From positions 248,001-312,000 of the forward strand of contig SAXG01000022.1 of assembly GCA_012932865.1 (NCBI GenBank): a DNA stretch of 64,000 bases. The letters are read 5' to 3'. Both the position numbers and the translations under genes were made by a program. This document shows positions 5,850 to 58,064 of the stretch, piece after piece. Positions within the stretch are counted from its first letter, which is position 1, and the number at the start of each line of letters is the position of its first letter. This stretch comes from Amylostereum areolatum. Lineage: Eukaryota; Basidiomycota; Agaricomycetes; Russulales; Stereaceae. The notes below the pieces were generated by a model. It had not been told where the DNA came from, did not search any database, and was given only the letters and a program-made list of their open reading frames with translations.

Positions 5850-6250
5850 TCACTGCGCTAGACTCTCACGAACGACCTTCGCAAACGCAGGTGAGACCTT
5901 CGACAATATATCCACCAACTCGTCCTGCAGCTCGTCAGCATACCGATCAACTCACAACCGAAAGCACTCACCCAAATCCTCCACTGCGCCTCCTTCCCCT
6001 TCTCGCTGATCGCGAAGTCGCTGGGCTCCTTCAAATCTGCGTCGCTTACGTACCCGCCCTTCAGCTCGTCCTCCCTCCCGCTTCCGCCAATAGCGGCCCA
6101 TACGATCTGGCGCGCGCCTTCCTCCGTCGTTCGGGCGAGCACAAGCTTCATCAGCTTGTCGAGGATGCGCACGAGTAGAGGCAGGTTCCTGCCCAATGCC
6201 GAGACGCAGTAGCCTGGGTTGACGGAGACGGAAACGACGGGAAGTTTCGC
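5850..6250 (-). pseudogene. SDR gene, fragment 4 (C-terminal exons)
   Basis: C-terminal part of a short-chain dehydrogenase/reductase, an NAD(P)-dependent oxidoreductase of the Rossmann fold. It reads SVNPGYCVSALGR, LARTTEEGARQIVWAA and GYVSDADLKEPSDFAISEKG. A 47-nt intron (5971-5925) precedes the last exon DELVDILSKVSPAFAKVV; TGA is at 5852-5850. Upstream (rightward) the piece stops at the 8-bp duplication AGTTTCGC bordering the KDZ transposon. Joining it to the fragment at 16997-17469 through the shared target sequence restores an uninterrupted frame ..CLEHAKLPVVSVSV... The gene cannot make a full protein here because its exons are spread over 52 kb. Confidence 0.85.
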
Positions 6251-6570
6251 ACCTGGCCCTCTACATACTAATATCTAATTAGATAGTGTGATCCCCCCCC
6301 CTTGGCATTATCTAGCTAGGTATCAAACCTAAGCATATGCCGCCCGCGCGGGCCAGCCCGCCAGGCGCCTTCCTATAATGGTAAGAGGAAGGTACCGTCA
6401 AGGCCAAGGGGCGTGGGGCCGTCCGGCTACCCGGCATGCCAGTCCCGACACCCGCCAGGTCCGGCGGCATCATGCCCGACGCCCGCTAGGTCCCTCGGCA
6501 TCTCCCGCAAAGTCGTCGTCGCCGTCGCCGACGACGAGCTCGACGTTCTACGCTCCCGGCTCATTGCTCG
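6251..6570 (+). repeat. KDZ left terminal inverted repeat
   Basis: About 320 bp, nearly identical to the reverse complement of 14631-14950. The match fades after a CGAGCTCGACGTT block near 6536-6546. It contains a GC-rich stretch (6340-6530) and a C run at 6293-6301. It encodes nothing convincing; the open frame here is a by-product of GC richness. Confidence 0.85.
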
Positions 6571-6771
6571 TCTTACCTAGACGTATTATGTATATTTAGA
6601 AAGCGCTTAACCAGTACATTAACGCTGTAAGCATGTCTTAGAGGCTATCTTCTCGTCGTAATACGAATACCTCACATTCGCCCCTCACACGCTCACGTGA
6701 CTTTGTTGATCGGTTTGTTCAGCGCTAAGTCAGAAGCCGAATAGCTTACTCTTCCCTTTCCCACTCCCTCC

Positions 6772-9700
6772 ATGTCTAGCACACACGACGGCTTTCGAAA
6801 AACGTCGAGGAAGATCGACGTTCACGTTTCCCGTGGCCTGAAGGCATTCAACCCGTCCCGATCGGCTCTCCCCACCATCAGCAAGTCGCGACTCGGTCAA
6901 GCGGGTCAAGATGACTGGACGCGGCAACTCGACTCCAGGGCACAGAAGGCCCTACAAGGTGAGTAAAGATGATATTATATGTACTATACTGTGTAATCAT
7001 CTGTGTTTGTCTTGATTAGGTATCTCAGCTGGCAGCAAACGGGCCATAGCGAATATCTCAGGTGGTCCACTCGCAGCATCGGACCCTACTCCACAACGAG
7101 CGCGGACCGATGATATGGACGACGAAGGCCCATATGGGGATATCTGGGTAGACGAGGAAGACGAAAGTCCGCTCGACATGTCGGTTGAGCTCTCGGCGGA
7201 AGGAGGCGAAGCGGGGCTCCTCCGTGCATATAACGGGAGGTAGGGTTTTTTTAATACTGTATCCTAATGTTCTCATTTATTTTTGAAGGCCTACTCGTCG
7301 ACGCTCGACACAGCCATGGTCGGAACGCATCAGAAATGCCGATCAGGCTTGGGAGGAGCAAATGCCGGCCTTGATTGACGCGTACCTGTGGTATATGAAT
7401 GACCCCACGAGTGCGCAAGTGGGCGGTCATGACGAGTTCAGTCTGCCATACATAGACGTTTATGGTGCGATATTTTTTCTTCACGCGCTATCTCACTGAC
7501 ATGGTGCGTCGAGACTACGATCCGAAGAAGCCGATATGTCAGCTCCCACAGAGCTTGCATCCGAACACCACACTCCTCCGGCAAGGCTGCCTGAGCTCTG
7601 CGCCGAGGACCGTGTCGTTCGCGATCTCGCTACGCACGCTGGATCTTTACCGACGACTACGCGTGCGGCAGCCCCGAGTCAGCGTTCAAGCATGGGTTCA
7701 TGTCCTTTGCGACCTTCATAATGTGAGTCCCTTGATCGCACCGTTATCTCAAGCTGACCAGTGGAACCATACTAGATGCCTTACAGCCGGCAGCTCTGGC
7801 GAATGTTCACGGACACCTTCGACATCTACCTACGGATTTTACGGGGCGTCGCCACGCGCGTCAACTCCGTCTTGAAGCGCACGGACGCGAATTGGCGTGT
7901 AACGCATTCTTGCCCGTCATGCCAGTATAAAGTACGTGCTTCATACCTTCTACCGAGCGGTACCACTAATTACGTCATCACGTAGCTAGTAGACGACCCG
8001 CCGCTACGGGTGGCCATCATTGGCGCCCTCGATGGCAATCAATCCCTCAAGCGTGTGCGACTCCGCGAAGGTCTTGAGGCTGATCCCCGCACATTTCAAA
8101 GCACATACTACATTCCAGAAGAGGAAGTAAATCGCTTTCGGTACGATGTCAAGGCCCGGGCTGAACGCCCCAAGGTATGTTACGAGTTATGCGCTCTCGC
8201 AGATGGCTAAAAGAGGTGTAGGCACCCGATAAGGACAAGGAAAAGCCCATGCCGTGGACGGCTGATGCACAGGAGGCGACGGCGGCCGACGGCGATGACA
8301 ACGACACTACATGCACGGATCGATGGAAGGCAGCGATGAACGACAATCTGAAGAGAATGTGGGCAATCTATCGCGAGACTGGTATCTTCCTTTCTGCCTG
8401 TCGACACGGTATAATCTGGTGGTTCTGTGATATGGTGGAAAGTGGCGAACTGTACGTTTATGTCGCCTTTCATACGAGTATCATTGAGACCTTTCGCTTG
8501 AAGGGCAAAATATCCTCTCGCCCTCCTCGAGCTTATTCTCGATATCTTCGGCGACGACGTCGGATTGGGCTATGATATCGGGTGCTCATTTACGGCCACA
8601 ATCAAGAAGAGCTCCCTCGCACGAAAGGCTCTCCTCCGTCGCCTTCGCATGGTCGTACCCGCCTTCCACGGATACGCGCACAATCGCTTATGTCAGCTCC
8701 TTTTCCATCCACTAATGCTCCTCGGATTCGGTATCGAGGATCTCGAGCTTTGTGAGCGCATCTTCGCCGCGTTCAATGGCCTTGCCAATATCACCCGGTA
8801 TGCCTCCCTGTTCCACCGCCTCCAAAGTATCGACCTCTTCGCACGACAATGGGACAACGACAAATATTCTGAGCTGTGTAAGTCACTTTGCGCGTACACG
8901 GAGTGCTTGTCTCTGACGTAATTTACATAGCAAACTTTCTGATGAACAACTATAAGCAAGTCGAGCAAATGCTCGACGAACTCCCCGTCGCTATCGCCGC
9001 GTTGCAATCCGGCAAGGCGTCTACTGACACCGACTACCACCAGCACCTTCAAGCCGAGCGGAAGTTCCTTGAAAGTCGCAAGAAAGAGTCTGAAGAGGAC
9101 AGCTTCGCGTGCGAGTACGTAGCCCTACTTATCTCACACCAGAAAGCGAGGTACGCTCGCTGTTAGTTGCTCCTTACGACACCGAGTTAATCCACTGGCA
9201 GCGAGATGTTCGATCGCGCGGTGGCGATGCTGGCTGACCCGTCGAAGAAGAAGTCGTTGAATGATCGCACAGGTATTCTGAAGAACCACGCATTTGAATC
9301 GCTTCAAACCCTTCAAAGCATGCTACAAAAGCTCGAGATCGAACGCGGCATTGAGCGTTGGACGCCGGACTCACAAGAATGGAAAGATGCCGCACGGTAC
9401 CTCGCAACGCGCGACTACCAGAAGGCCCTCAACAAGCTCGAGGGACTGGTCGTTCAGCGGCTGTTTGAGCTTGCAAAGGCGGGTATGACGGGGACAGGTA
9501 TGATGCATGTGGCTATCTCGTTCTTGCCGATGACTCACATATCCTGTAGGATACAAGATGCGTACACATATCAACAAGTCCCTAAAGACTCGATGCAAGG
9601 CGATTCAATCCGCACTGAAGAAGTACAATGCGGCCGCCAAGTCTATCGACAGGCCCATGCTCGAGTGGAAGGATATATCCACCTACGGTAGTCTCGCCGA

Positions 9701-10250
9701 ATTCGAGCTCCTTCGGACAACTCGCGAGGATATCCTCGCTCAACCGTGGGCAAACAGTGCTAATCGGCAGGCAGCAATCTACTCACTCAAGCTCGAGCAC
9801 GCTCAAGAGGAGCGAGAGCGCCTTAACGTCGAGATCCGTCGTCTCGTAACCTGGATGCGCGACGAGGAGACTCAGTTGCGCGCTGCTGTCGAAGACACCC
9901 GAGGTCAAGGTTCACACTTGGCGCGTGAGCTCGAGCATATGCTCACCCATCGTGTTCGACAAAACCGTGTCCATCGAACAAGGATACGATGGATTAGCGA
10001 GAATGTACGGTGCTACACCGGTACCCGCGAATGCGGTTTCGCTGTCCATGCCGTTTCCGGACCACTCGGCGGCGACGCAGGAGCGGGCCTCGATGTCGAG
10101 GACGAGCATGCACATCCCAATTACGATGGAAACGACGAGGATGGTACGCTTGTTGACGAGACAGTGGTGGATGCGGACGAGGATGACCGTTTCGGCGACG
10201 AGTTGGATGCTCTACATACTTACCTACAGAATATGTCGCTTTTGGAATGA
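6772..10250 (+). CDS. KDZ family transposase (KDZ-1)
   Basis: Transposase of the Kyakuja-Dileera-Zisupton superfamily, which moves the element by DNA cleavage and joining. The N-terminal part carries WEEQMPALIDAYL and Y..F/H patterns typical of fungal KDZ proteins. The middle has RVAIIGALDGNQSLKRV (near 8010), corresponding to the family's LxxxDGNxSLKR block. The catalytic region reads GYDIGC (about 8575) and PAFHGYAHNRLCQL (about 8660), then GFGIEDLELCERIFAAFN. Several short introns interrupt the gene (for example 6961-7019). The C-terminus is acidic (DEDDRFGDELDAL). No disabling mutation was noticed; exon joins were not all verified. Confidence 0.8.
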
Positions 10251-10763
10251 CTACCTGTGTTCAATGACCTCGTATTTCTGATTGCGTGAAAGGCTCATGT
10301 TTTGATATGAACTGTGACTACATTAAGTGCTACTGCCAATGAGGTGAGTACGGGTTTCGCGCGCTGAAGGCATACAAAATCAGAGCGCGACCAACTTGCG
10401 CGACGGTCATCAATGAACCGTTGAAAGTATAATCTCGTACTACAAAAACATGTCAACTCAGAGTAGACATACAGTATACACAGATCTAGTATTTTATGTG
10501 CTTGGGATTGTGTTGAAAGCGTTGAGTGTGAAAGATTGGGTCAACCCACGCGCGCATTGAATAGACGCGGCGTCGAGTGCATAACTGGTCGACTCGTGAA
10601 TTGGGACAAGCGCGCATCAACTTGATCTCAACTGCCATCATCTCCCTCTCCTCACCTTCGTCTCGTCCTCTCTCGTCCCTCTCCTCTCCTCTCCTTTTCA
10701 TTCTCGGCCTGCACACTCTTCTCTTTCTTATCCCTCGCTTTATTCTTCTGTTCTAGTACAAAT
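10251..10763. other. Spacer between KDZ genes 1 and 2
   Basis: A 513-bp spacer inside the KDZ element. It is pyrimidine-rich just before the next gene (CTCTCC runs at 10640-10730), a common feature of fungal core promoters. No open frame or repeat is supported. Confidence 0.5.
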
Positions 10764-12188
10764 ATGTCTACTCCTTCTCGTGGAACACCTCAGCGCGCTC
10801 GTGGTTCTTATCGAGGCGGAACACCTCACCGTGGCACCCACACCCCTCGCGGTGGCACTCCTTTCAATACCAGCAGTGCCCATACATCCTCCAATGGTCC
10901 ATGGCCCTCCGATATTCCGGCCGAGCCGTGGGGCTCGGTCACAGAATCCAGTATTGTCGAGCTCATCCGCTCGCTCGAAATCGAATGGGACAACAGCCGG
11001 CCTACGTTGTGGGCAGAAACGGCGCGCGCCGTTCAAGGCTGGTCAGAAGATGGGAACCCCTCCCCCGAGGATAGATGGCATGAAGGGTACGACCGCCATG
11101 CCGGTGATCGTAGGTTAACGCGCCTACGTCTCATGGCTCTCATTAGAGACTTGGTACGTGTTCCCGATCCGTTTCGTGTTCGATTTTGACTCATGTTCGC
11201 GTTGCGACATCAGACCGCCGCGCTCGACCGTGTTTGTGGCGTTGGCACCATGGTGGTGCACCTTCATGGCGAGCTCAACCCCGAACTTGGGTTGGAGGCC
11301 ACAACGGCGGAAATGATGGCGCACAACGTGAGCATCACCCTCAGCGACATTATTCAAGGCAACAGCGCGTTTCAAGACGTCGTCGACAACATCGTGAACC
11401 TCGTTCGCCACCGCCTCGCGCCGATGTTCGGTCGGGACTGGAGGCAGCGTGTGGTTGGATCGCGATACATCGATCCCCGGCGCATGCGTATGGATCCTGT
11501 CGACCAGGACGTCCCGTCGCCTCCTAGAACATTGTCTCCAAACCCTTCCCCACCAAGAACACCTTCCCCGCCATCTCCGCCGTCTCCCCGTCCCTATTCT
11601 TCACGCGTGCCGTCCCCCGACACTCCCCTCCCATCGTTTTCCCTTCCAGGTGGTTCCCCCCCATCGTCGCTTTCTCATGCTTTCTCTGGTGCACCATCGG
11701 AGAAGGGGAAAGGGAAAGGGAAAGGGAAAAGCACGGCCAAGTCCTCTTCATCGGCCACACTTCACGGCTCGATCGGCGACCCCCGTTCATCGTCTGTATT
11801 GTCATTCTTATCGGGCCTGTCATCGGCCGCGTCCTCAATTTCATTGGACTCCGTACCTTCCGACATGTCACCACCCTTGTCTCCACTCCCGACTAGTGCT
11901 TCGGCCGGCCCCGTCCCCCCTGCCCACCAGATGGCGGGGCCGTCATCGTCAAGGACCGCCCCATCACAATCGGAGCCAGAGCAAGATGTTTTCTCCAGCT
12001 ACGGGTACACGAACCTCCCCGTCTACGTGATGGACCTTCTCCAAGCACTTCAAGCATCTGAAGCCGTCGTCACACGTGTCGAGGAGATCTATAATAATGT
12101 CGGGCGTGCTTGGCAGTTGGACGAACTGGTATCTATGGGGTTTAACTTGGGTACCGCGCGTGCGTTGGCCCGTTTCATGCGCGGCTAA
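10764..12188 (+). CDS. KDZ passenger gene 2, Arg/Gly-rich and Pro/Ser-rich protein of unknown function
   Basis: Two exons (10764-11153 and 11214-12188; intron 60 nt with GTACGT..CAG) give about 454 residues. The N-terminus has RGG-like repeats (RGTPQRARGSYRGGTPHRG). An alpha/beta-looking segment follows, then a long Pro/Ser tract and a GKGKGKGKGK stretch near 11701-11730. The C-terminus (VMDLLQALQASEAVVTRVEE..LDELVSMGFNLGTARALARF) is well ordered and slightly UBA-like. I do not recognise the family. Its place inside a transposon suggests a role in the element's life cycle or a captured cargo. Confidence 0.7.
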
Positions 12189-12416
12189 TGCGGGTGGCAT
12201 CTAATGTCTCAGATGGTAGTGCTCTCCCGTCTAACATAGTGTCCCCTTTCTGATTCAAATTGAACGGACAGATCTCCTGCAATGGAACCGGCCGTAGTAT
12301 TATTTCCTTATTCCTAGTTGTTTTCATACTCCGTCGGGGGCTCGTATTTCGCCCGTCCCCCTCTTGTTTGTAACTTCTTGTATTGCTACGCCCAGTCCCC
12401 CTCCCCCCCCTTTGCT

Positions 12417-14393
12417 ATGACCATTGGTAGTACCTCGTCCTCTCGCCCCCGCAAGCGCGCAAAGGCTGCACCAAAATCAGACGAGCAGAAGGCCGCTCAA
12501 AAGCAAGTCAGCTTCGAGGCGAACAAGGCATACCACGACGCCCTTACGAGCGCCATCAACAAGGTCACGGAGCTTGTCAGCGGCGTGGCCGTCGCCCACC
12601 AGAAGTCCTACGACAAAGTCGCCTCGGACCTCTCGCTAACAATGAAGGAGTTCAGCGAACGCCGCGCCTCAAACATTTACAACGCGTACAACTTTTGTTG
12701 GGCACGCGTTGTCCGCGGTGACTGTACGTTCGCCGTCCGTGCTTGTTGTTCTCGTGCTGAATTATTTTAGGGGACAATGACCTGTCAAAAAAGGATGTTA
12801 TAGACATTATCAAGGAGGGCGAGGAGGGTGGAGGTCACGAGTGCCTCTCCGAGGACCAGCGCGAGACACTCCTTCAAGTGCTCCAAGCTGACCATCAAGA
12901 GCGGGATACCGGTGTCGTTCGCAAGCCAATGAAACAGCTTCACGATATCCGGACGTCGTTAGAGAAAATCAAACGAGAGGTACGATATCTATTCACCTTT
13001 GTCTGCGGCCGACGCTCATTGCGTTCATCAAGCTCGATGGCGTCCACACGCGAAGCGGGCTTGAATACATCCTTCTCACCAGTCGGAGCAGCGGTTCGCA
13101 GCTGAGCGTGCCAAGTGTCTACACCTCAGCTCAAGGCGCGGACTTCATGCTACAAGTCCTTCGTATCGCGCCTGTCGAGGTGGGCATGAGGTTTGAGGCC
13201 TTCGCCATCGGTTCTGCTAGAATACAAGGTAAGCATTAGCTGGTCCTTCTTCCGCGATCACTTACCCGTGACGGCTGGCAGGTGTTATCAAATACCTTTC
13301 TCAGCAAACAATCGGCAAATCCGACAGGAAGGGCGCAACAAAGATGCTCGTTCAAGACATCTTGCGTAGCCAGATGGGTACGTGTTCTTCCTTTGTTGTG
13401 GCCCGTTTCCTCATGTTCCGTCAAGAACGCCTTACTGGGAAGCCGGGTTCTCGTATCGAGTACACGCACTGGTACACAAGGATGATCCTCCAGCTACACA
13501 TCAACATGCGTGGATGGCCCCTCAAGGGAAAACCGGTTTCTCCCTCCGAGATCAAGACCAACAAGGAGATGTCGACCCTCTACCAAGCCCTGTTCACTGG
13601 AACGTGCCATCTTTACCGCATCTCGGACGAAGAAATGGCCATTCAAAGAGCAACTCCCGGCGGCCTGTTTCCCATGCCAGCCGAGGCTCCCGCGCTTCCC
13701 TCTCCTTCGTTACCCTCAACTTCAACCTCAACATCGGCAGTGGTGCCCTACTCGTCCTCTGACCCCGTTCATCCCGCCTCCCCCTCTTCTCCGTTCCCCT
13801 CGCTTTCCTCCCCTCAGTCCTCGACCCAGGTCCCATTGCCGTCGATCCCGGCCCCATCACCATCAGTGAGCCCAACACCGCCGCTGTCGATCCCAACCCC
13901 GTCATTGTCGAGCCCAGCCCTGCCGTCGTCAGTCCCGACCCCGCCGTCGTCAGTCCCGACCCCGCCATCATCAATCCCAGCCCCGTCGCCTTCGTCAACT
14001 ACACTTGCGGCGATGGAGAGTGCCAGTGTTTGGCCTGGGGCTCCTTCACCCTCGGCCCCTGCGATCCTATTGACTACAACTTCCACGCACACCCAGTCAC
14101 ACGAACGTGCTCCCGTGGCTTCGACGTCGGTCTCACCACTATCGGATCTCGCAGCGTTGATGGCCAACGACAGCTACATGAGCTCCGGTACCAAACGAAC
14201 TTATGAGGCTGCGATTGGCGATGACAATGGTCATACAGTAACGGTGCGGGGTGCCCCGGCACCTTTAGGTGATGTTTATACAGGAGATTCATCGGAGCTT
14301 AGTCTCCCAGCTCCGTCGACGGCGTTCAGTAACCAGGACTGGACTTTCTCCTCCGACTTCTTATTCACTCTACCTGATTACCAGTTTAGTTAG
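12417..14393 (+). CDS. KDZ passenger gene 3, unknown protein with coiled N-terminus and Pro/Ser repeats
   Basis: Multi-exon gene. The start ATG 12417 opens a basic, nuclear-localisation-like stretch (SRPRKRAKAAPK). A helical region follows, then after splice sites at about 12724/12770 a segment WDNDLSKKDVIDIIKEG..ECLSEDQRETLLQVLQADHQ. Later exons read VIKYLSQQTIGKSDRKGATK and EYTHWYTRMILQLHINMRGW. The last 250 residues are Pro/Ser/Thr repeats (13680-14010). The stop is at 14393. Exon borders after 12980 are approximate. Family not recognised. It is co-oriented with the transposase, ending about 240 bp before the right inverted repeat. Confidence 0.65.
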
Positions 14394-14630
14394 CCATTTG
14401 TAATCCATTACAATATTTACTAGTCCCATAACAATCAAAACATAGTCCAATTTGATGGCCCTTGTACACTGAATCTGACTTGTCATTTTTCTTCTCACAC
14501 AGATTATGTAATCACCTTGAGGGCTCTCATAATGGCTAAGTCACGCTCGGTACAGCGGCTGATGGATAGCATAATCAAACTCTACATGGTAAACACTCTC
14601 TAAGCATATATGATATGTCTAGGGTGCGGT

Positions 14631-14950
14631 GGATATTGAGTTGGGAGCATGCAACGTCGAGCTCGTCGTCGGCGACGGCGACGACGACTTTGCGGGAGAT
14701 GCCGAGGGACCTAGCGGGCGTCGGGCATGATGCCGCCGGACCTGGCGGGTGTCGGGACTGGCATGCCGGGTAGCCGGACGGCCCCACGCCCCTTGGCCTT
14801 GACGGTACCTTCCTCTTACCATTATAGGAAGGCGCCTGGCGGGCTGGCCCGCGCGGGCGGCATATGCTTAGGTTTGATACCTAGCTAGATAATGCCAAGG
14901 GGGGGGGATCACACTATCTAATTAGATATAAGTATGTAGAGGGCCAGGTG
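14631..14950 (-). repeat. KDZ right terminal inverted repeat
   Basis: Reverse complement of the left repeat 6251-6570, ending GGGCCAGGTG next to the target duplication AGTTTCGC at 14951-14958. Small differences (for example in a G run near 14897) show that the two repeats have drifted slightly. Confidence 0.85.
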
Positions 14951-15023
14951 AGTTTCGCTAGTCTAGTAGAATTCGTCGGGCGTTGATAGGGATTTGCGAA
15001 ACGACCGATTGCGTCATCAGGTA

Positions 15024-15573
15024 AGGTAGGCGACACCAGGAACCAGCACCCCCTTATATAAGCATTCCCGACCCCGTCTCGCTGCCTCAATAAGTTCCAC
15101 AACATCCATCCTTTGCTCATTCTGACTCCGGAGATGTATAGAGGAGGGGTGTATGATATTGTCTCTGCAGCTACTTTTTTGAAAAAATAAATTCCGGGAG
15201 AGTTATTACAATCTTTAAGTAAAAGTCGGAAAACACCTCAAAATGCACTTAGCAGCTCAGCCAACCTGATTTAAAAAATTTCGTATACGACAACCTCGCA
15301 GATTTTGCCGCTTACTAAGCACATCACGTGCCTACTGCCTGCCTTATTTGGCCGTAGGTACTAGGTAGGTACGAAACCAGGCTCAAAACGGCATCATACG
15401 TGCCAAATGGTGCATCAAGAAACGCAGGGTAAAGCCATTTGAGGATTCCGAACTGTGGCCCAAGTTTATTCATCAAAAAAAAAACCGGGTCGGACCCATA
15501 CCTCCCAGATTTGCCGCCCACGTGACCTGTGCCTGATTACATAAGGGGTGCTGGTTCCTCGTGTCGCCTACCT
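15024..15573. mobile_element. 550-bp MITE with TA target duplication
   Basis: Terminal inverted repeats of about 33 bp begin AGGTAGGCGACAC. They are flanked by TA at 15022-15023 and 15574-15575. The related element B2 (51674-52204) has the empty site CATCAGG-TA-CGTCCG at about 51731-51743, proving the insertion. The interior is AT-richer and non-coding. TA duplication suggests a Tc1/mariner-type mover. Class is inferred from the duplication only. Confidence 0.8.
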
Positions 15574-15717
15574 TACGTCCGAATATGGGTACGCCCTGCA
15601 CGTGATGCCGCTCCCGACTCGATGTCGGACGGTGCGACGTGCGACTTGCGACTCGCGACTCCAGTGCGACGACGCGTCTCAAACCATGTATAGATACTTT
15701 CTCTTCCTACAATCACA

Positions 15718-16017
15718 ATGGAATCTTTGCCCTCATGAGAACCATCGAACACTCCAGCCCCTCGCTCTTCATACAAGCCTAGCCCTCCCGTATTTCTACG
15801 TGCCGATGACACGTTCACCCCGGAGTCCGTCAGACCGTCGAGGCCTCCACCCATCATCGTCGCCGACAGTTTTATTTCTATGAATCAAAAGTTCCCGGCT
15901 ATCCCTTGTGCTCCGACTTCTTTTGCACTTGCCGCCCGCCCGTTTTCTGAGGCAGTCGACGAGATCTCATCCAGGTGTGAGACAAGACTTTCGGATAGTG
16001 GGTCATCGTGTGTGTGA
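15718..16017 (+). pseudogene. B1 copy of the 99-residue element ORF, with early stop
   Basis: Collinear with the open 99-codon frame of B2 at 51880-52179. Here the seventh codon is TGA where B2 has CGA, a C-to-T change at a CpG. The remainder is nearly identical to B2. Function unknown. Confidence 0.55.
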
Positions 16018-16103
16018 TCATCTCCTCCATCTTCATTGGGTTCCATGTGAGGAGAAGGGATGGTAGCAATATGACGAAGTAGGGTAAAGGAGTGGGACAC
16101 GTC

Positions 16104-16807
16104 TAAGGCTCCAACTGTATAGTTTATGTCTAGTGAGATTGGGGTAGCTAGATAGTATACTATACTAAACAGTAAACAGACAGTAAACAGACAGTTTAGA
16201 CAGTTAATGCATCATTACTGAGGTAAAGAAGTCAGCAGTGTAGAGTTTAGTACACATAAGCTCTGAGATAGTCTTAGCCTTTAGTAATGAGCATGCATCA
16301 GTACATATATGGCAAGCATCTGAGAACAAGCACTCAACAGACATCAAGGTAGCAGGAATTACTAAAAAATCCTGGGCCATGCACATGATGACCAGAAAGT
16401 AGTCCTTATGTTCCTGTGTATAGTCATAAAGTGCACATAAATAGAACAAATGAATTATATATCTTCCACTGTTTTAAGGGTTCCAAAGGTTTTCATATCC
16501 CCCCTCATTAGCCTTCTAACAATTGAGTTCTAGGACCTCTGGAAATGTGGAGATGGGTGCTGAGAATGACAGCTGAGATGGCTGAAAGAATCACCAGAGT
16601 TGGGCATGAGTGTAATAGGTGTAGTAGAGGCTGATAGCTTACACCTGGTAGCACCTACGGGCATGTCACACACTGCCACTTTGGATAGGGTTTACTGTCT
16701 AGTATACTCACTACTTACTGTCTACAGCTGATGGGGTAGCTAGATAGTAAAACTATACCATATAAACAGTTTATAGACAGTAAATAGACTATAACGTTGG
16801 AGCCTTA
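16104..16807. mobile_element. 704-bp hAT-type element inside B1
   Basis: Ends TAAGGCTCCAAC and GTTGGAGCCTTA are inverted repeats. The 8-bp target duplication GACACGTC is exact (16096-16103 and 16808-16815), as in hAT elements. The related sequence at about 21070-21085 in B2 carries the unoccupied version of the site. The interior has many ACAGTAAACAGACAG-like subterminal repeats and a fragment of hAT transposase. Confidence 0.8.
16204..16449 (-). pseudogene. hAT transposase C-terminal fragment
   Basis: An 81-codon frame reading DFLVIPATLMSVECLFSDA then SELMCTK, matching the hAT dimerisation region (..LxIPxxxxSxExxFS..). Too short to be active. It identifies the surrounding 704-bp element as a deletion derivative of a hAT transposon. 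Confidence 0.6.
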
Positions 16808-16996
16808 GACACGTCGAAGCCTGAGACGCGTTTCCGCTGGCTATCACGTGCAGGACGTGCCCAAATCGGGACGGGGTCGATGACACGGCCGAGGTGTTGC
16901 AGATCCCTATCAACACCCGACGAATTCTACCAGTCTTTAACTAGACACTACCTGCTCGCCTCGTCAGTGTCCGTTAAAGACTCGGCCTCCAGTCTA

Positions 16997-17621: not shown

Positions 17622-17879
17622 CATCAGGAAAACTCCCGGTACTTGAGACACACTGAGAACTTGGGCCAGCCACTTAGAATTGGAGAGCAGCCTTAGGTGC
17701 ACTTGGACTTGGGACAAAATGACTGACTACCTTGGTGAAATAAGTGGAACTTGGTGGGATCCTTGAAAATATAGTAGTTTACTTTCATACTTGAGAAATT
17801 TAGCATGTTACTTAGTTGAATGTGTCAATACTTGCAAGGTCACGACTTGGTGGATTTCGAGAACGGGAAAGTCACGTGA

Positions 17880-47848: not shown

Positions 47849-48200
47849 CTTTCCCTTGCATCACATGCTTCAATGACGTCATTGCCCGGACTTCCGAGCG
47901 GGGTTCCGCATCCTTATCTATGACATCACTGCTCCGGACCTTCGTCCTCCGCCCCATGACTCCTTTCCTATTGTTCCCCCCGCTCGCACCACTATCGCAT
48001 CGCATCGCACCATCGTTCCCACTTGTATATAAGGACAGTGTTTCTCTTCCCTTTTCCCTAGACTGTCCATCTCGTCATACGGTACCGTAGCGCACGTTGC
48101 ACTACCCTAGACCCCGGCACTCTCGAATCTATTTTCTTCTCGCTCCGCCCATCGTCGCGACTTAGGCGGTTCATCGGTCTCATAAACTGTGTTTCTGACA
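47781..48200 (+). repeat. Copy 2 3' LTR, inversion breakpoint
   Basis: 420 bp. It reads as identical, in opposite orientation, to the solo LTR at 53304-53723, and unlike its own 5' LTR. Flanked on the right by CCTGC. Confidence 0.85.
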
Positions 48201-48220
48201 CCTGCCACATCCCACTTGCA

Positions 48221-50816
48221 ATGCCCCCTCGAACAAGGCCTGATGCTCCGCCCCTCTCGACCCGCGCGAAAAACAAGGACACCCATCCTAGTGCTCCCGA
48301 CGCGCCTAGGCCCCGCAAAACAACGTCCGAGGTCAAGGCCAGCAAGGAGGCGAAGGCCAAAGCCACGCACGCTGCTGACGCCGCTCAACGGGTCAAGGTG
48401 AAGCGTCTTGCCGCGATTGAAGACCGTCTCGCAAGGGAAGACTTCTCGTCACCGTCGATATCCCAGTCGTCAGCTCCGAACAGAGCGAAAACATCGTCTA
48501 CAAGGGGACAGCCACCGGGCAGTAAGTTTCTCTACATCTTTGAGCAAGTCATATTGAGTACGTACCTCTTGTTCAGGGAAGAATATTTCGGGTGAGGATG
48601 TTCGCTCTCGGGGGCCCGGGAACGACACCGAGGACTATGATGCTGCCGAGGCCGAGGAGCGGAACGCTGAAGGCAAAGAGTACGCCGCTGAGGACGAGGA
48701 CGACGGCCCCAGACGACTTTTTCGCCGGAGCAAATTTTCTCGTGTCGACTCCGCCGAGGAACAGGAAGAGGAAGACGAGCTTGATGAGGAGGAAGAGGTC
48801 TTCGTCAAAAATCAATCAGGTGCGAATCTTCGTTGTGTTCAGACCTCTCCCAAGGCCGCAGTGGAGGACGAGGCCGTCGAGGGCACGCCGATTGCAGCGG
48901 TCAACCACCACAAGACGTCGAAGAGTCGTTCTCAAGTCGACGCTGTTCGACGCGGCACGGCCGGATCAATTCTCAAATCGGTCCCCGAGAAGCGTTCCGC
49001 ACCTGACACACGTGGCTCAACAACCAAGTTGTCAGCGCTGGCGTACGTGTTCTTTCCTCTGTCCTCTATTTGTCTCACTGCCGCACAGGCCTCCCGCCAA
49101 ACGAGCACGTCTGATCGGGGGGCTCAACTCCCACTGGACTCCCGCTGCCGGAAAACGCCAGATGGAACGGCCCCTGTCAGCATCACCCGAGTGTGAGCTC
49201 TTCGACGAAGGTCCCGACGGCGACCAGTTTCAAGACTCGGCGCCGCCCATGGTTCAAATCAAGACCCCTACTCCACGACCGCGTCCCCGTCCCGTGCAAC
49301 GCTCAGCGACTCTCCGCAAGGAGGCACCAGCCGCAAAGTTCGACCTCGACACTACAAACAGCGAAGATGTTATTGACAATGTCCGCGACCAGGTATAAAT
49401 ATTTCTCTTAAACTTCCTCTCGTGTTTAACCTTTCTATAGAGCACACCTGCAGCGGCCCACTCCGCTAACCAGCCGCCTTCCAAGAGTGCTCGCGTATAT
49501 GCATCGAACAGGCGTGTTTCCCAGCCGGCCGTCCGTCAGGTACGTTGTTACTCACTCGAACTTGTGGTAAAGGCTGACGTGCTGACGCATGACCCCAAGG
49601 ACACGAACACCCTCACTCAAGTCTCAGCCCCGGTAGCTGCAAAGCTGGGAACGAAGCCTCACGCCGTCGACGGAACACCCAAACGTGCGCGCAAGCCTCG
49701 GTGGACCACAGACGCATTGGACGAATCTATCCGGCCAACCTTCAATGGCGTATTCATGCCCAGCGTGCGTGAGTTTGCGGGCGCGTTGCCGCCTTGGGAC
49801 GAGCCGACCGTCGAAGAGGTTCAGATGTTGTTTGACAAGATGTACCCTGACGTTGAACTCATCATTGCGAAGGGGGAGATCATCTACGATCTTGTATGTG
49901 ATTCCTCATCCCATCAAGCCCCGCTCACCCATACTGTATCAGACGATGCAGCGGCTCAAGGAATGGCGATCCATGCTCGGTACTGAAGCTCTCAACAATG
50001 TGAGAACATACCTCGAGGCTGGCGTGCTCAAAGGCGACATCAACCCCGATTCCGGCATACATCAGTCTTTCGTTAGCGCCGCCGCGTACATTGAGTGGGC
50101 GCTCTCCAGCGAAGACGGCAAGAATGCTCCTATGTACTGGGCTACCTGGAACAATGGGGTCAAGAAGGAGGTATGGTCAGTTGGTGTGTAAGACAGTGTC
50201 GGTATACTCATCCTTCAACCTTTTTAGGGCCGTTTCCAGTTTCATCTGATCCTGAAGACCTTGTCGGCGCACCTCGCAGGCATACCGGCCAACTTCCTCC
50301 TGTTACCAACCGGGGTGCTCATACTCTGTATCGTCGCGGTATGTGTGTCCTATTCCAATCCTGATCCTGCAGACTGATTACTCCCAACAGGTTGAGCGTG
50401 CATTGAAATTCTGGGTGACCGGCGTCCAGGTCATTCCGCGCGGCCCGCAAGGTTTCTTCTCACGAGAAAACTGGGGTGACAAGACCGTCCGTACTGAAGA
50501 AGGTCACACAAAGCGCCGCCGCAAGGCTGGCAAGTTCGTGCCCGCTGTCGACAGTCTCGATGAGGACTGCTGGTTGAAGATCATTGATGGTGCCTTTGCG
50601 TGGCTAGATAAGCCCGCCGTTGCTGAATCCGATGATGTTACTGAACAATCTGACAATGACTCGGACTTCGAGATGACATCTGATGCCCCACCTCCCGAGT
50701 CCGACAATATTATGACATCTGATGCCCCACCTGCCGATTCTGAGGATGCATGGTATGTTCCGTGTTCTCACTCTGCAATAGATCCTGATCGGGGTTTTCA
50801 TTTAGATCTCACATGA
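48221..50816 (+). CDS. Plavaka-associated accessory protein of unknown function
   Basis: Multi-exon gene starting MPPRTRPD at 48221. The first exons are basic, then strongly acidic (EEQEEEDELDEEEEVF near 48760-48805). The conserved C-terminal half has FMPSVREFAGALPPWDEPTV, YIEWALSSEDGKNAPMYWAT, GRFQFHLILKTLSAHLAGIP, then ERALKFWVTGVQ and GFFSRENWGDKT. The tail repeats SDAPPPESD. Several introns (for example 49895-49943). I recall similar hypothetical proteins from mushrooms but know no function. Before the inversion it was transcribed divergently from the transposase. Confidence 0.7.
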
Positions 50817-51341
50817 CCCATTGATTTCCATTCTGAGTGCTTGCTATATTAGAGTGGCAGGTACCACATTCTTGCCACATTCCATGAATTTATGTATACA
50901 ATTGATTTGAAATATTATTCATTTCATTGTTATTATGGTTGAAAACTAAGCTTGAAGCCTCCTTCATGTGTGATTGTAAGTGACCTTGGGGAACCATAAG
51001 GTAGCTTGTGAATGCTTGAAGTAGAACTTATGTAGACTTTGGCCAGACTTGTCAAGCTTATGATGTACTTGACAATACAATTATAAAGTACTTGATGATG
51101 TTGGTCCTAACTTATACACACTGGGGCCAAACCTTGCACTATACTTGGGTACTTGAAAGACACCTTGGCAGGTCTCCCAAGTACTCCCCAAGTCTCTTGT
51201 CAAGTACACTCAAGGCATATGGGGCTTGTACAAGTAAAGGGACATGGCTTGGCCAAGCAACTACTTACTTAGAGCTTGGAACCTTGAATGACTTGCCCAA
51301 GGGTCCCAAGGTGGTATCAAGTAAGTGGAGTTTTCCTGATG
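50817..51341. repeat. Subterminal ACTTG-rich region of C2 (left)
   Basis: Many CTTG/CAAG words (for example 51040-51330, ACTTGGGTACTTGAAAG, CCCAAGTACTCCCCAAG), ending in the terminal repeat. Such subterminal arrays are typical transposase-binding regions in CACTA-like elements. Binding here is inferred. Confidence 0.6.
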
Positions 51342-51673
51342 TTTGCGGCTATGAATCCTGAGTGACTCATCCTTGCGTGCAGGAACAAGGACAAAGGGGA
51401 GGCTGCCATCTGCAGTGCGTGTGCTTCTCATTCGTGGTTCATCTCGCGCTCTCGGACTCACGTCCGAACTCGTCTTTCCAGGCATTAAAGATAAGACTGG
51501 TTATTAGAGGCAGAACTTCGCATTGTCAACCTTTCGAGCTTCGCGTCCGTCAACGCATTTGGAGAAGTGTGTGAGAAGCTGTGAGAAGGACGCGCTCCGG
51601 GTCGATATCCTCGTCTACAATGCTGGGGGTGGGCATGCTGTCATATGCAGCAACGACCGACGGGTGGGAAACG
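51342..51673 (+). pseudogene. SDR gene, fragment 2, on the inverted segment
   Basis: Reads FAAMNPE, a TGA stop where Arg (CGA) is expected, then LILACRNKDKGEAAI. An intron (GTGCGTGTG..CCAG) follows, then degraded text ELRIVNLSSFASVNAFGE and VDILVYNAG with frame breaks. The left edge (TT at 51342-51343) is the Plavaka duplication and joins fragment 1 as MRF-AAMNPE. The right edge (TGGGAAACG, 51665-51673) is the B2 duplication. It lies on the plus strand, whereas the other three pieces are on the minus strand, as expected from the 48201-53303 inversion. Confidence 0.85.
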
Positions 51674-52204
51674 TAGTCTAGTAGAATTCGTCGGGCGTTG
51701 ATAGGGATTTGCGAAACGACCGATGCGTCATCAGGTACGTCCGAATATGGGTACGCCCTGCACGTGATGCTGCTCCCGACGCGATGTCGGACAGTGCGAC
51801 GTGCGACTCGCGACTCGCGACTCCAGTGCGACGACGTGTCTCAAACCATGTATAGATACTTTCTCTTCCTACAATCACAATGGAATCTTCGCCCTCACGA
51901 GAACCATCGAACACTCCAGCCCCTCGCTCTTCATACAAGCCTAGCCCTCCCGTATTTCTACGTGCCGATGACACGTTCACCCCGGAGTCCGTCAGACCAT
52001 CGAGGCCTCCACCCATCATCGTCGCCGACAGTTTTATTTCTATGAATCAAAAGTTCCCGGCTATCCCTTGTGCTCCGACTTCTTTTGCGCTTGCCGCCCG
52101 CGCATTTTCTGAGGCAGTCGACGAGATCTCATCCAGGTGTGAGACAAGACTTTTGGATAGTGGGTCATCGTGTGTGTGATCATCTCCTCCATCTTCATTG
52201 GGTT
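51674..52204. mobile_element. MULE-like element B2, left terminus and body
   Basis: Starts TAGTCTAGTAGAATTCG. Very similar to B1 but lacks the MITE (empty TA site at about 51738). Ends at TTGGGTT (52198-52204), where element E interrupts it. Confidence 0.7.
51880..52179 (+). CDS. 99-residue ORF carried by B2
   Basis: Open frame MESSPSREPSNTPAPRSS.. with a Pro/Ser-rich start and an ordered C-terminal half (FALAARAFSEAVDEISSRCE). B1 has the same frame with one nonsense change. No known domain. It could be a remnant of a longer captured gene. Confidence 0.45.
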   Translation: MESSPSREPSNTPAPRSSYKPSPPVFLRADDTFTPESVRPSRPPPIIVADSFISMNQKFPAIPCAPTSFALAARAFSEAVDEISSRCETRLLDSGSSCV

Positions 52205-52254: not shown

Positions 52255-53303
52255 CATCAGCAATCTAACACATTGAGTTAACACATGTTTTGGTTAGTTG
52301 CCAAGTTGTACAACCTATGAAGCAGGTGAAACACCCAAACTTCGAAACTGGTCTGAAACCTATGTATTCATTGGGAGGTTGGTCAACTGAACAGCAATTG
52401 AAGCATAACCTAGGTAAACTAGGGACCAAGTACTTACCAACACACCTTCAACCTACACCTTTGAATTTCTTATTTGCTTGTAGACCCACAGTCACACAAT
52501 ATGATGATGACCAAATAAGTTATATTGTGCATAATATTGTAACAAAAATAACAAAAGGTAAGTATACTATATAATAATGTCTGATAAGTGAAATAGGGCA
52601 ACTACAGCAGCAAGGTAGGGTGACAACACGGCAGTGGTGACAAGATGCAGGGGACAAGACAGCAGTGTGACGAGACAGCATCGGCGGCGAGACGGTGTGG
52701 GCAAGATGGCGGTGGTAGCGAGTAGCGAGACGGCAGGGACTGCAAGAGGGCGTGGGTGGCGAGACGACAGGGGCGGCGAGGCAGCACGGGCAGCGAGACG
52801 GCGGTGGTGGCGAGACGGTGCGGGTGGCGAGATAACGGGGGCGGAGAGACGGCGCGGGCAAGACAGCGGTGGTAGCGAGACAGCGGGGGCGGCAAGACGG
52901 CGGGGGCGGCCAGACGGCGGGGGCGGCCAGACGGTGGGGGAGGCGAGGCGGCGTGGGTGACAGAGTGAGGGGGGTGATGAGGTAGCGGGGCGACAAGGCC
53001 CAGGCAGTGGTGGGAGTAGGGAGGGAGGGAGAGACGACGATGGTGGGAGTGGTGGTGGGAGTGATGAGAGAAGGTGTGCGCTGGCACGGTGAGTGAAGTA
53101 GCCGTGTGAGTGAGTCAGCTATCCCACGGTTAAATGGCTTTAGGGCAGGCTTGATTTAGCCTGCGGGCAAATCCCAAGCTGCGCGCGGCAAGGTGTGAGA
53201 AGTTGCCGAGTTTACCGGAGTTTCCTTAACCGGCCAAACCGTGGAAGAAGCTAACTGTCTATCAATTGCCATCAAACTCCTCAACTCAATGTGTTAAGTT
53301 GCT
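52255..53303. mobile_element. Satellite-filled element D2, truncated
   Basis: Starts CATCAGCAATCTAACACATT like D1 and carries the same G/A-rich satellite (52590-53080). Its right terminus stops at ..AAGTTGCT, four bases short of the complete GATG end. The inversion-breakpoint LTR begins there. Confidence 0.7.
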
Positions 53304-53723
53304 TGTCAGAAACACAGTTTATGAGACCGATGAACCGCCTAAGTCGCGACGATGGGCGGAGCGAGAAGAAAATAGATTCGAGAGTGCCGGGGTCTAGGGT
53401 AGTGCAACGTGCGCTACGGTACCGTATGACGAGATGGACAGTCTAGGGAAAAGGGAAGAGAAACACTGTCCTTATATACAAGTGGGAACGATGGTGCGAT
53501 GCGATGCGATAGTGGTGCGAGCGGGGGGAACAATAGGAAAGGAGTCATGGGGCGGAGGACGAAGGTCCGGAGCAGTGATGTCATAGATAAGGATGCGGAA
53601 CCCCGCTCGGAAGTCCGGGCAATGACGTCATTGAAGCATGTGATGCAAGGGAAAGTCATGTGCCGTGACACGTCGCGTGTACGAGGTCTGCAAACGAAGA
53701 GAGAAATGGAGCGATCCGTGACA
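53304..53723 (-). mobile_element. Solo Ty3 LTR, inversion breakpoint
   Basis: 420 bp, reverse orientation, apparently identical to the copy 2 3' LTR. The right flank GCAGG (53724-53728) is the complement of CCTGC at 48201-48205. Before inversion this was a solo LTR with a perfect GCAGG duplication, sitting between the two genes of the Plavaka element. Confidence 0.85.
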
Positions 53724-53934
53724 GCAGGAAAGGACGCGCGTAGGTTTGCGTGGAAGGTAAGGTTCTTGTGACATCGCGTATTTGGTGCTCTTACCAAAAC
53801 TCGTCACAGGCTTTCTCCCTCTGAGTCTCAAACGTTCGCACCGGTTGCCGGCGTTTCAACGTTCATTCGTCAACCCCCTCGCTCTTGCCGCCCCCTCCAC
53901 CTCGCCCGCCTCCTTCCCAACCAAGGTCCTCGAT

Positions 53935-56900
53935 ATGCCGCTCGCAAAAATTCGATGTTCGGCGACGGCAAGAACAATTCCGTGCAAAGCTCGAGGTTGC
54001 CATCAGTGGTTCAAAAACCTTTCGGGACAGACACGACACTTCAACGCATTCCATACCAACAGCCTGGTACCTGCTCCCGCGCCCCGTATCATTCAACACC
54101 GCGTCCCAACACCAGTGCCGGAGGACAAGGATTACGACTACGCAATGCCAGATGTTGACTATGGAGACGGCGCCGCTGGCGTGTACATGGGCGCGCGCGC
54201 GGAGATGCATCCCCATCTGACCGGTAGGTACAAACTTGCCCGCTTAGCATGTACTATACTTACACTACATCCAGGTAGACCTTGCGACCGAGATGGCGCA
54301 TATCTTCCAGCAGGGTCTCCCCCTTCGCCCCCCTTGCGTCCATCCAATGACGACTATACGCCATTCAACAATCGTCAAGAGTTCGAAATCGGCGAGTTCT
54401 TGTACCGACAAGTTCAAATGAGCGGGGCGAACATCGATCAGCTCATGGCCCTCTGGGCCTCAACGCTTCCTGAAGGCTCGGAGCCACCGTTCGCCGACAA
54501 TAAAAATCTGAACGAAACTATTGACACTAGCAAGCTCGGTGATGTCGCATGGCAGTCCTTTTCAGTAACATACAATGGGCCCCTTCCTGCGGGTGAAGTA
54601 CCGTCATGGATGCTAGCCTCGTACGAGGTTTGGTTTCACTGCCCACGCGAGGTGATTCGCAACCAGCTGTCGAACCCGGACTTCGCGTCAGACATGGACT
54701 TCTGTGCAAAGCGGGTCTACGACGCGAACAACAAGCGGGAGTACCGCGATTTCATGTCTGGCGACTGGGCATGGAAGCAATCTGTGCGTATATCTTGAAA
54801 GGTGCTTACCACTCGACACTCACTCCTTGTTTGCAGGATATACTTGCTGAAGATCCACAGAACCACGGCGTGACGTTCTGCCCCGTCATTTCGGGAAGCG
54901 ATAAGACCACGGTGTCTGTGGCGACGGGGCAGAACGACTACTATCCGTTCTATATCTCGAACAGCCTCATCACCAATGGGGCTCGGCGTGCCCATCGTGA
55001 GGGCATTTCACTTGTCGTGTTTTTATCTATCCCCAAAAGTGTGTATCTTTTATCATTCATTCACCTTTGATTTCATTCTGACCGACGGCACAAACAGCGG
55101 ACCAGCAATATCAAAATGATAGTCACTTCCGCAAATTCCGACGACAGCTTTTCCACTCCTCAATACACATGATCCTTCAACCGTTGCGTCCTGGAATGAC
55201 GAAGCCGGAGGTGACCTTATGCGCGGACGGCCACTACCGCCAAATCATCTTTGGGCTAGGGCCATATATTGCCGACTATCCCGAGCAGGTACTGCTCACG
55301 TGTGTAGTACAAAATTGGTGTCCAAAGTACGTATGTTCTTCTGTCTGTGGTTTACTGTCATCTAACCTCTGCTCTCCTTTATAGATGCACCGCGATGCCA
55401 TGGGACTTGGACGGAGTCGGGACACATCGATGTCCGGAGCACACCGACGCCGTTCTGGACGTGTTTGGCATCAAGCCTGCTTGGGAGGACTACGGAATTG
55501 TCGGCGACGTCAAGGTATGCCTTTACGCATTGTACTTACCTTGTGCTGGCCTCTAACAATTTCACAGCCTTTCACTGTAGATTTTCCGAGGGCGGATATC
55601 TACGAAATGCTTTCCCCGGATCTCTTACATCAAATCATCAAGGGAACATTCAAGGACCACCTCGTCGAATGGGTGAACCAGTATCTTATCGAGGAACATG
55701 GCCAGGCGCGCGCGCTCGCAATTGTCGTAGACATCGACCGTCGGTACGCTAACATGCTTTTGGTCAAGCTACGCCATATACTTACGTGTGCTGGATCGCA
55801 AGGATCGCTGCTGCACCGAGCTTTCCGGGGATCAGGCGCTTTCCCGAAGGGCGGGGCTTCAAGCAATGGACCGGCGACGACTCCAAGGCCCTTATGAAGG
55901 TAAGGAGATCTTCATGGCAAGTGTCAAGAACGACCGACTAAGGAATGCATCCAATAGCCTTCTAAGTCGCGACACAGGCAGTGGCTCAGAGGAAGAGGGA
56001 ATCAGGGAACAAAGGGAGAACAGTACATTGCACTCTAAGCCGGTAAAGACTAGGAGGAAAGACTAAGGAACTAGATACATGCAGGCCAGCTATATATACT
56101 AGGGAGGGGATGTGCACAGACCAAGGGGCACATCAGCGATGCCATCAAAGGGGATTGATCCACAGGTGTGAGATCAGATAGCGCGAGAAAGCAAGGAAAA
56201 AGCGGAGCAAAAGGGCGAACCGTGACAGCAAGTGTGTTTTCTCGCTAACCATTTGTTTTGCACCAGGTTTACCTACCCGCAATTGCAGGTCATGTACCTG
56301 CGCAGATGGTTCACGCGCTCGGCGCTTTTTTAGAGTTTTGCTACCTAGTACGAAGATCGACGATCACCGACAACACTCTGATCGCCATCGACGCTGCCCT
56401 CAAGCGGTTTCATTGTGAACGCGAGATCTTCCGCCACGTTGGTGTACGTCCAGATGGGTTCTCACTTCCGCGACAACACGCCATGGTGCACTATGTTGCC
56501 CACATCAAGCTGTTTGGTGCTCCAAATGGGCTATGCTCATCTATAACGGAGTCCAAGCATATCAAAGCAGTCAAGGACCCTTACCGGCGGACCAACCACA
56601 ACAAACCCTTGGGGCAGATGCTGCTCATTAATCAGCACCTCGACAAGCTGACCGCGGATCATTCCGACTTCACCGCTCGCAACATGCTCGTCGGGCCTTG
56701 TCCTCGCATCCCACCTGCCATGCTTGCTGTCATGCAGAGTGCGGCTGCTGTGCCACCTCCGGTCCCCTTCGACGATCCCATTCCTCTCGACGGAGAGGAC
56801 AACGAAGATGACAACGGAGGTGATGTTGATGGGCCAGCTATATTGGGAGAGGTTCAACTTGCAAAATGTCGAGGTGAGCTAATCCCATACTCATCTTTCT

Positions 56901-57594
56901 CTGCTGAGCTGACCAAAAATGCTGTACAGTTCGTGGTCTTCCCCGCCCTGTTGATATGCTCGCCGCTGCGATAGATATCCCCCGCCTTCAAGAGCTCATT
57001 TGTCGATTCCTGTATGATCAAAAATTCCCCGACTCCGACATATCTTCTGCGGATATTCCTCTCACTAGCTGTCCAGCTTTCGACGGGCATGTGGCTGTTT
57101 TTCCTTCCGCCGTTGCATTATTCTATGCACCCAGTGATGCTTCCGGCAGTGGAGGCATGCACCGCGAACGGATCCGGTCCACAGCATCTTGGCGCCATGG
57201 TCCCGCACGACGCGACTGTGCGTTTATCGAGAAGGATCCCGATCTTCCAGGTTTCAGGGGTCTGTATGCCGTCCGTGTCCTCCTCCTCTTCCAATTTACG
57301 GTGGATGATACTGAGCACCCATGTGCATTGATATCATGGTTCTCACCCATTTCGGATGCCCCGTGTCCCGACACCGGCATGTGGATCGTCGAACCGGATC
57401 TGGACAGGAATGGTGACCATGAGATATCGGTCATCCATCTTGATTGCATGCTTCGTGGTGCGCATCTGATGGGGGTGTCTGCAGGGGCCGAGTTTCTTCC
57501 GCCTTCGCTAACAGAGTCGGATACTTTGGATGCATTCCGTGCTTTCTATGTAAATAAATATGCAGACCACCACTCCCATGAAATCGCATTTTAG
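53935..57594 (+). CDS. Plavaka family transposase
   Basis: Transposase of the Plavaka group (CACTA/CMC-like, common in Agaricomycetes). Zinc finger: IPCKARGCHQWFKN..TRHFNAFH. Conserved blocks: GEFLYRQVQMSG, DVAWQSFSVTYNG, ISGSDKTTVSVATGQNDYYP, GLGPYIADYPEQVLLTCVVQ, FPRADIYEMLSPDLLHQIIK then GTFKDHLVEW, CSSITESKHIKAVKDPYRR. Eight or so short introns; one (55900 to about 56264) contains a 306-bp solo LTR. ATG 53935 was chosen because it opens the zinc-finger exon; an upstream ATG at 53782 is an alternative. No clear disabling mutation was noticed. Confidence 0.85.
55922..56227. mobile_element. Solo LTR in an intron of the Plavaka transposase
   Basis: A 306-bp LTR with exact duplication GCAAG (55917-55921 and 56228-56232), nearly identical to 35947-36252. 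It lies between splice donor GTAAGG after ..SKALMK and the acceptor before VYLPAIAGHV, so splicing could still remove it. Confidence 0.9.
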
Positions 57595-57927
57595 AGTCTT
57601 TAAATATATTATTATTGTGTTTGAGGTTATAGAAATATTGGTGCTTCAAGGAACTGTAAGTTCTTCGAACATGGCCAGGACTTCTGATATAAGCACAAGT
57701 CATCCAGTGAATCTACTTGTCCCCAAGCCAGTCTACTTGTCCCCCAGTCAGTATATTTATCCCCAAGTCAGTATATTTATACCCAAGTATATCTCTAAGG
57801 ATCAATTGTTTTACCAAGTGCACAAGTGTTCTCGCTCCAGTCTAAGTCGGCTCCAAGGAGGATCTCCAAGTCCAAGGTGTAGGTTCCAAGTCCAAGTAGG
57901 GCTCAAGTACTTGGAGTTTTCCTGATG
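57595..57927. repeat. Subterminal repeats and terminus of C2 (right)
   Basis: Repeated CCCCAAGTCAGTATATTTAT-type and CCAAG words up to the terminal repeat. Counterpart of 50817-51341. Confidence 0.6.
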
Positions 57928-58064
57928 AAGCGCATCGTCACCTCGAAACCCAGCCTAACATTCGCGCCGCCGACGAGGATCGTTTTCCCTGAAAGGTCGG
58001 CGCACTCGACGGGGGAAACCTTCTTGAGCTGGTCCCGAATGAATTGTGCGGTTGAGAGCTTCAT
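57928..58064 (-). pseudogene. SDR gene, fragment 1 (start codon and NAD(P)-binding motif)
   Basis: Begins MKLSTAQFIRDQLKKV at 58064, then ADLSGKTILVGGANVRLGFE. The SDR TGxxxGxG motif appears altered (GGANVRLG, expected GANTGLG). Ends TMRF at the Plavaka insertion. Transcription would start from the 58065-58460 spacer. Confidence 0.85.

Follow-up and report, generated by a model that had tools for sequence, protein, structure and literature searches.

A short-chain dehydrogenase gene in four pieces within a transposon nest of Amylostereum areolatum: three insertions and an inversion most likely mediated by LTRs

How can one gene come to lie in four pieces across 52 kb, with one piece on the opposite strand? 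The question is raised by a window of 64,000 nucleotides from the basidiomycete Amylostereum areolatum (contig SAXG01000022.1, here C98:248001-312000; G+C 54.5%, zero N), part of a 57.1-Mb assembly of 182 contigs. It holds a dead gene of the short-chain dehydrogenase/reductase (SDR) family, originally on the minus strand and now interrupted by transposable elements (TEs). C-numbers (C106, C115 etc.) denote contigs of the same assembly, and all DNA comparisons were made within this genome. A first-pass annotation of the window had proposed that nested transposons scattered a single dehydrogenase gene. Three insertions were indeed found, but insertion alone cannot flip a fragment, and an inversion is needed as well. 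The whole account given below, with three insertions, nested elements, a later inversion and further recombination between long terminal repeats (LTRs), is considered very likely.

The gene is read from fragment 1 (57928..58064, minus strand), which runs from Met to ..GFEVTMR(F), through fragment 2 (51342..51673, plus strand) and fragment 3 (16997..17469, minus strand) to fragment 4 (5850..6250, minus strand), which reaches the stop codon. Taken in this order, the pieces give MKLST..VTMR(F) / FAAMNPE..DGWET / WETT..LEHAKL / AKLPVVSV..SLAQ-stop, and each join passes through a target site duplication (TSD). Fragment 1, in frame 0, closes with MR(F) at a TT duplication (57928-57929), and fragment 2 opens with FAAMNPE. 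Fragment 2 (close TTDGWET) terminates in the 9-bp TSD TGGGAAACG with which fragment 3 (open WETT) starts. Fragment 3 ends in GAAGTTTTGC and fragment 4 begins in GAAGTTTCGC (both words as read on the plus strand), the close LEHAKL and the opening AKLPVVSV having a 10-bp TSD in common (GCAAAACTTC / GCGAAACTTC, 9/10). The first-pass annotation had described these extents from Met to stop, without overlap, and the duplications at the joins; both were confirmed, the former by this reading and by the ordered paralogue matches given below.

No intact open reading frame (ORF) remains: the gene lies in four separate pieces, one of them inverted. The frames of fragments 1, 3 and 4 are open, without any stop or frame break, apparently between plausible GT-AG introns, which would also part the exons of fragment 3. 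Fragment 2 is not clean coding sequence, with one in-frame stop and three frame breaks. In a profile search, the read-through protein matched PF00106 at 6.6e-12 (45.7 bits against a cut-off of 26.6), while none of the five single pieces given apart did so. The same protein matched solved SDR structures (best 3rd5, 5.1e-19), and one piece on its own matched no PDB chain.

The nearest paralogue in the assembly lies on C106, where the four fragments match consecutively and without overlap within about 1.3 kb, at 1258-1384, 1391-1698, 1743-2141 and 2163-2559 of the 3,945-bp stretch used for comparison. Matches were strong for fragment 1 (3.7e-6), fragment 3 (1743-1967, 3e-17) and fragment 4 (2263-2436, 3e-17), with E = 2e-4 to 6e-4 for fragment 2 and 0.007 for its final part. 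Other C106 matches up to E = 1 fitted no order and were set aside as chance. When the genome was searched with the read-through protein, 12 matches were obtained: eight in the window, three on C106 without internal stops and one, weak and with stops, on C34. No closer SDR match than C106 was obtained elsewhere in the assembly by this search, and a second copy of the SDR locus was not found in the assembly. Since the matches to C106 are consecutive, the assembly gave no closer SDR match and TSDs are common across each join, the four fragments are, as judged from the sequence, one gene.

Three primary insertions part these fragments: C2, a PlavakaB-like element, between fragments 1 and 2 (TSD TT); B2, between fragments 2 and 3 (TSD 9/9); and B1, between fragments 3 and 4 (TSD GAAGTTTYGC, 9/10), B2 and B1 belonging to one 0.77-kb family with terminal inverted repeats (TIRs). 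C2 is present in two parts, C2a (53724..57927, minus strand) and C2b (48201..51341, plus strand). C2a contains a transposase ORF (53782-54798, plus strand) with the Plavaka domain PF18759 (1.4e-28, Pfam). The complete C2 copy on C115, the only copy in which both ends were verified, ends exactly at 57927 and 51341, the borders of fragments 1 and 2. The C2 termini are CATCAGGAAAA..TTTTCCTGATG, of the CATCA..TGATG type, and the TSD is TT in the window and TG in the C115 copy. In an excerpt of PMC12730594, PlavakaB DNA transposons (CMCT clade) are defined by CATCA..TGATG termini and a 2-3 bp TSD. The left part of B2, B2a (51674..52204, plus strand), adjoins fragment 2, and its right end, B2b (17470..17621, plus strand), adjoins fragment 3 and continues at 21044..21142 (plus strand) up to the 7-bp AACCCAA, which is duplicated at the end of B2a (TTGGGTT). 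B1 (14959..16996, plus strand) carries two inserted TIR elements at about 15023-15575 and 16107-16808, one with TSD TA and one with an 8-bp TSD. The C101 copy of the B family has a length of 0.77 kb, has no clear TSD and looks non-autonomous.

The strand of fragment 2, opposite to that of the other three, is matched by the elements around it. When the C2 halves were searched separately, six other contigs matched both. On five of these (C115, C136, C128, C56 and C99) the halves are directly joined on one strand with a 5-bp overlap, the overlap word in C115 being GCAGG; on C132 they keep the same order and orientation without exactly abutting. Likewise, the B2 halves are joined with a 7-bp overlap in the two other B copies having both ends, C101 and C1 (copies taken from the best 40 of 96 candidates scored). 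In the window, C2a and C2b are reversed to each other, and so are B2a and B2b. Since fragment 2 is on the plus strand and the halves of both elements are reversed, an inversion is needed besides the insertions.

The breakpoint on the C2 side was located exactly. A lone LTR (53304..53723, minus strand) joins C2a to G', a copy of the small element G, and is identical at 420 of 420 bases to the 3' LTR of R2, a Ty3/Gypsy element. The lone LTR is bordered towards C2a by GCAGG (53724-53728), and the 3' LTR of R2 towards C2b by the complement, CCTGC. Because of this split duplication and the 420-bp identity, both LTRs are taken to have belonged originally to a single young Gypsy insertion, as its two LTRs, and to have been separated since. 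The contiguity of C2 and B2 elsewhere therefore places the breakpoints in the Gypsy element of C2 and at an LTR in G', and the inversion was most likely mediated by LTRs. An LTR-mediated inversion should have both breakpoints at inverted LTR copies with exchanged TSDs; here one TSD pair is exactly split between two LTRs, whereas no reciprocal pair was found, either in the window or, for the three of four flanks searched, in the rest of the genome. All four disabling lesions of the pseudogene lie within the one inverted piece, fragment 2. Hypermutation of the inverted segment as their cause was unsupported, since C2b (97.3-97.5%) and C2a (97.3-97.7%) diverge about equally from the C115 copy.

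R2 (41107..48200, plus strand) and a second Ty3/Gypsy copy, R1 (26033..33129, minus strand), are inverted to each other. Reverse transcriptase (RT), RNase H, integrase and chromodomain were identified with Pfam on the R1 ORF, and R2 has an equivalent ORF. The order RT-RNase H before integrase (R1), the LTR ends TGTCAC..CTGACA and the 5-bp TSD, evidenced by empty sites in C2 copies, are those of Ty3/Gypsy elements. The flanks of R1 are mismatched (CTGCC and GAAGA); those of R2 (GGAAC on the left) do not match either, its own LTRs differ at 29/420 positions, and it was read as chimeric. R1 and R2 have a 5,724-bp stretch without any difference, preceded by 8 differences (5' LTRs, 8/420) and followed by 98 in 1,209 columns (3' 1.2 kb). 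Either recent gene conversion between the inverted copies or an assembly effect would give such identity.

Among the alternatives, the one that survives best, although it is improbable, is a misassembly at the long inverted repeats R1 and R2 that would have produced the inverted layout. Short reads could not resolve the identical stretch, and there is a precedent in maize, where, according to an excerpt of PMC4806543, centromeric elements with mismatched TSDs and solo LTRs were improperly assembled in an earlier reference. However, the reversal of fragment 1 against fragment 2, and of C2a against C2b, is present already across the lone LTR of 420 bp, and the window is free of N. With a misjoin inside R1 or R2, it is the left half of the window that would be turned round. 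A misjoin there therefore leaves the inversion necessary, unless the lone-LTR junction is also wrong.

Nested insertion without any rearrangement is clearly less probable again. It would explain the target duplications at all three gene joins and the nested elements with TSDs of their own, but it leaves fragment 2 on the wrong strand, the halves of C2 and B2 reversed and one Gypsy TSD split between two LTRs. Unless the assembly is wrong, strand and contiguity refute it.

That the fragments derive from different SDR paralogues, the finding named in the first-pass annotation as fatal to a single gene, is barely credible: the larger number of disabling lesions in fragment 2 is the only point for it, and it was rejected on the ordered, non-overlapping matches to one paralogue, the TSD-matched joins and the lack of any closer SDR match in the assembly. 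Mutator-like elements (MULEs) have short TIRs and TSDs of 9-11 bp, and they are known to capture gene pieces. Capture of SDR pieces from one or more genes by such transposons (Pack-MULE-like), to which the short TIRs and 9-10 bp TSDs of the B elements would point, has next to no chance of being right. It was rejected on the position of the fragments, which are beyond the ends of the elements and have a TSD at each border; moreover, the B copies on C101 and C1 match no SDR fragment, and the assembly yielded no closer donor gene.

The preferred history, with three insertions followed by an inversion, would be as follows. A single SDR gene on the minus strand was struck by three DNA transposons, C2, B2 and B1. 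Later jumps added element A and the two TIR inserts at B1, and elements H, G and F in B2, where G' was probably added too; C2 received two retroelements, a Gypsy element that is still young and one with short LTRs. The Gypsy element in C2 would have been opposite in orientation to another Gypsy or LTR copy in G', and recombination between both would have inverted C2b, fragment 2, B2a and G', bringing fragment 2 onto the plus strand and leaving the halves of C2 and those of B2 reversed to each other. More LTR recombination would then have deleted a large part of F, and a copied host segment, E, would have been imported or left behind between the inverted Gypsy copies. The single gene, its three insertions, the inverted state and the breakpoint on the C2 side are established by the sequence; that LTR homology drove the inversion, and in which order later events followed, is inferred. 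TEs nested in TEs, and a gene older than the nest, as the first-pass annotation had it, are supported.

Several points weigh against this history. The partner of the second breakpoint is missing, the G' flank TTGCT having no mate in the window, and the same applies to the flanks of E (GAAGA, GGAAC) and to the R1 flank CTGCC. Three of the four missing junctions, GAAGA not being among them, were sought genome-wide with up to 3 mismatches, and no convincing mate was found. These patterns gave 1, 2 and 0 matches, each keeping the LTR part with 3 mismatches in the 9-11 flank bases; a translocation with the missing flanks elsewhere was rejected, as all three matches were mismatched in flank bases. 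Further deletion or exchange must hence be invoked for the missing flanks. Difficulties in assembling an inverted repeat could account for the 5,724 bp that are identical in R1 and R2. The far end assigned to F (52205-52254) was not confirmed in other copies and was not found in 6.4 kb more of the C139 copy. Finally, the last two exons of fragment 3 match C106 weakly (E = 0.97 and 0.19).

Regarding the secondary elements, A (6251..14950, plus strand) has 8.7 kb, TIRs of 361 bp (93.6%) and a TSD of 7-8 bp, AGTTTCG(C). It lies inside the target duplication of B1 and is therefore most simply later than B1. Inside B2b lies H (17622..21043, plus strand), PlavakaB-like, with termini CATCAGG..CCTGATG and TSD TG, and inside H lies G (19127..20637, plus strand), PlavakaB-like and minisatellite-rich, with termini CATCAGC..GCTGATG and TSD TT. 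No transposase was found in H and G, where one ORF, inside H (18467-19153), was scanned. The second G copy, G' (52255..53303, plus strand), is without its last 4 bp, where the lone LTR starts, and was probably inserted in F. The G elements contain a minisatellite of 17-bp period (19531-20337 and 52705-53000), with lengths differing between copies.

F (21143..26032, plus strand) is a large element whose insertion into B2 is marked by TTGGGTT/AACCCAA, and its 874-bp insert (22441-23314) is a TIR element with an 8-bp TSD. Pfam searches with two ORFs of F and three of A (two versions) gave no families. F lacks sequence at 25854/25855, where other copies have about 2.6 kb extra (C4, C139), 2.8 kb (C53) or 10.3 kb (C130). 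In C4 and C139 it also runs at least 4.1 kb past the point equivalent to 26032, a part missing in the window. Since F is shortened relative to these two copies, deletion through LTR recombination is the simplest account. Two retroelements were inserted in C2, the Gypsy element (TSD GCAGG) and a 307-bp solo LTR (55922..56228, plus strand, in C2a; TSD GCAAG). Another 307-bp solo LTR of this short retroelement (35947..36253, plus strand; TSD GGTGA) lies inside the SEC31-like part of E. Near-identical LTRs occur at dozens of places among the matches listed, and their occurrence in pairs about 955 bp apart points to a retroelement that is very short and was recently active, which we take to be TRIM-like.

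The nest does not consist of TEs throughout: E (33130..41106, minus strand; 7,977 bp), which is bounded by R1 and R2, contains copied host DNA, namely SEC31-like (best E 1.6e-23) and casein kinase-like (3e-48) sequence, with part of a hAT-like ORF. A plain transposon was rejected for E after reading these ORFs. NCBIfam searches with four ORFs gave only generic matches to kinases and weak ones to ankyrin, none of which came near the curated cut-offs. A 98% copy of E is found at C108:203303-210968, ungapped except for the 307-bp LTR, and a 91-94% copy of its SEC31 part on C66. The open stretch of this part measures 1,096 codons on C66, 958 on C108 and 624 in the window. The right end of E falls inside an ORF that continues on C108, presumably a hAT transposase.

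More tentatively, and with the chances rather against it, the nest may be a recombination trap, in which inverted Gypsy copies recombined repeatedly, both among themselves and with other loci, the 8-kb segment was imported by LTR homology at both ends, replacing part of F, and R1 and R2 are still converting each other. If the latter is true, the segment between R1 and R2 could lie in one orientation in some nuclei or strains and in the other elsewhere.

On both sides of the nest there are BTB/POZ-domain ORFs (3311-5613, 58326-59513 and 61968-63926), with 61993-62615 repeated at 63312-63926 (71%). An ankyrin-repeat ORF is located at 1146-2723. The BTB-domain ORFs, the chromodomain Gypsy copies and the PlavakaB-like elements would be in keeping with an agaricomycete genome.

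Together, the gene pieces and the intact copies of the elements record to the exact base the growth of a fungal TE nest and its subsequent reshuffling. Strand, and not order alone, must be read in such nests, since an insertion-only account would have passed here despite the inversion needed. The locus would serve well as a benchmark for the annotation of nested TEs. All the processes seen in it are already known, and the whole is genome decay of a known kind, unusually readable; in the literature search, judged from titles and abstract openings, no case was recognised as the same.

Compared with known systems, the gene matches the profile and structures of the SDR family PF00106 like other members, but it is broken. 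With termini of the CATCA..TGATG type and TSDs of 2 bp (TT or TG), C2, H and G resemble the PlavakaB elements in the excerpt of PMC12730594, and C2 matches a Plavaka transposase, but C2 is split by a Gypsy insertion and the inversion. The R1 ORF has the RT, RNase H, integrase and chromodomain of fungal Ty3/Gypsy chromodomain retrotransposons, whereas the LTRs of R1 and R2 are unlike and their flanks do not match. A parallel in layout is maize CEN10, for which the excerpt of PMC4806543 describes chimeric LTR retrotransposons with mismatched TSDs, solo LTRs and inversions; both regions are TE-rich and have all these features. In contrast to CEN10 as described there, a split TSD and intact copies of the element that was broken allow one breakpoint of the inversion to be assigned here, and a piece of a gene provides a further marker.

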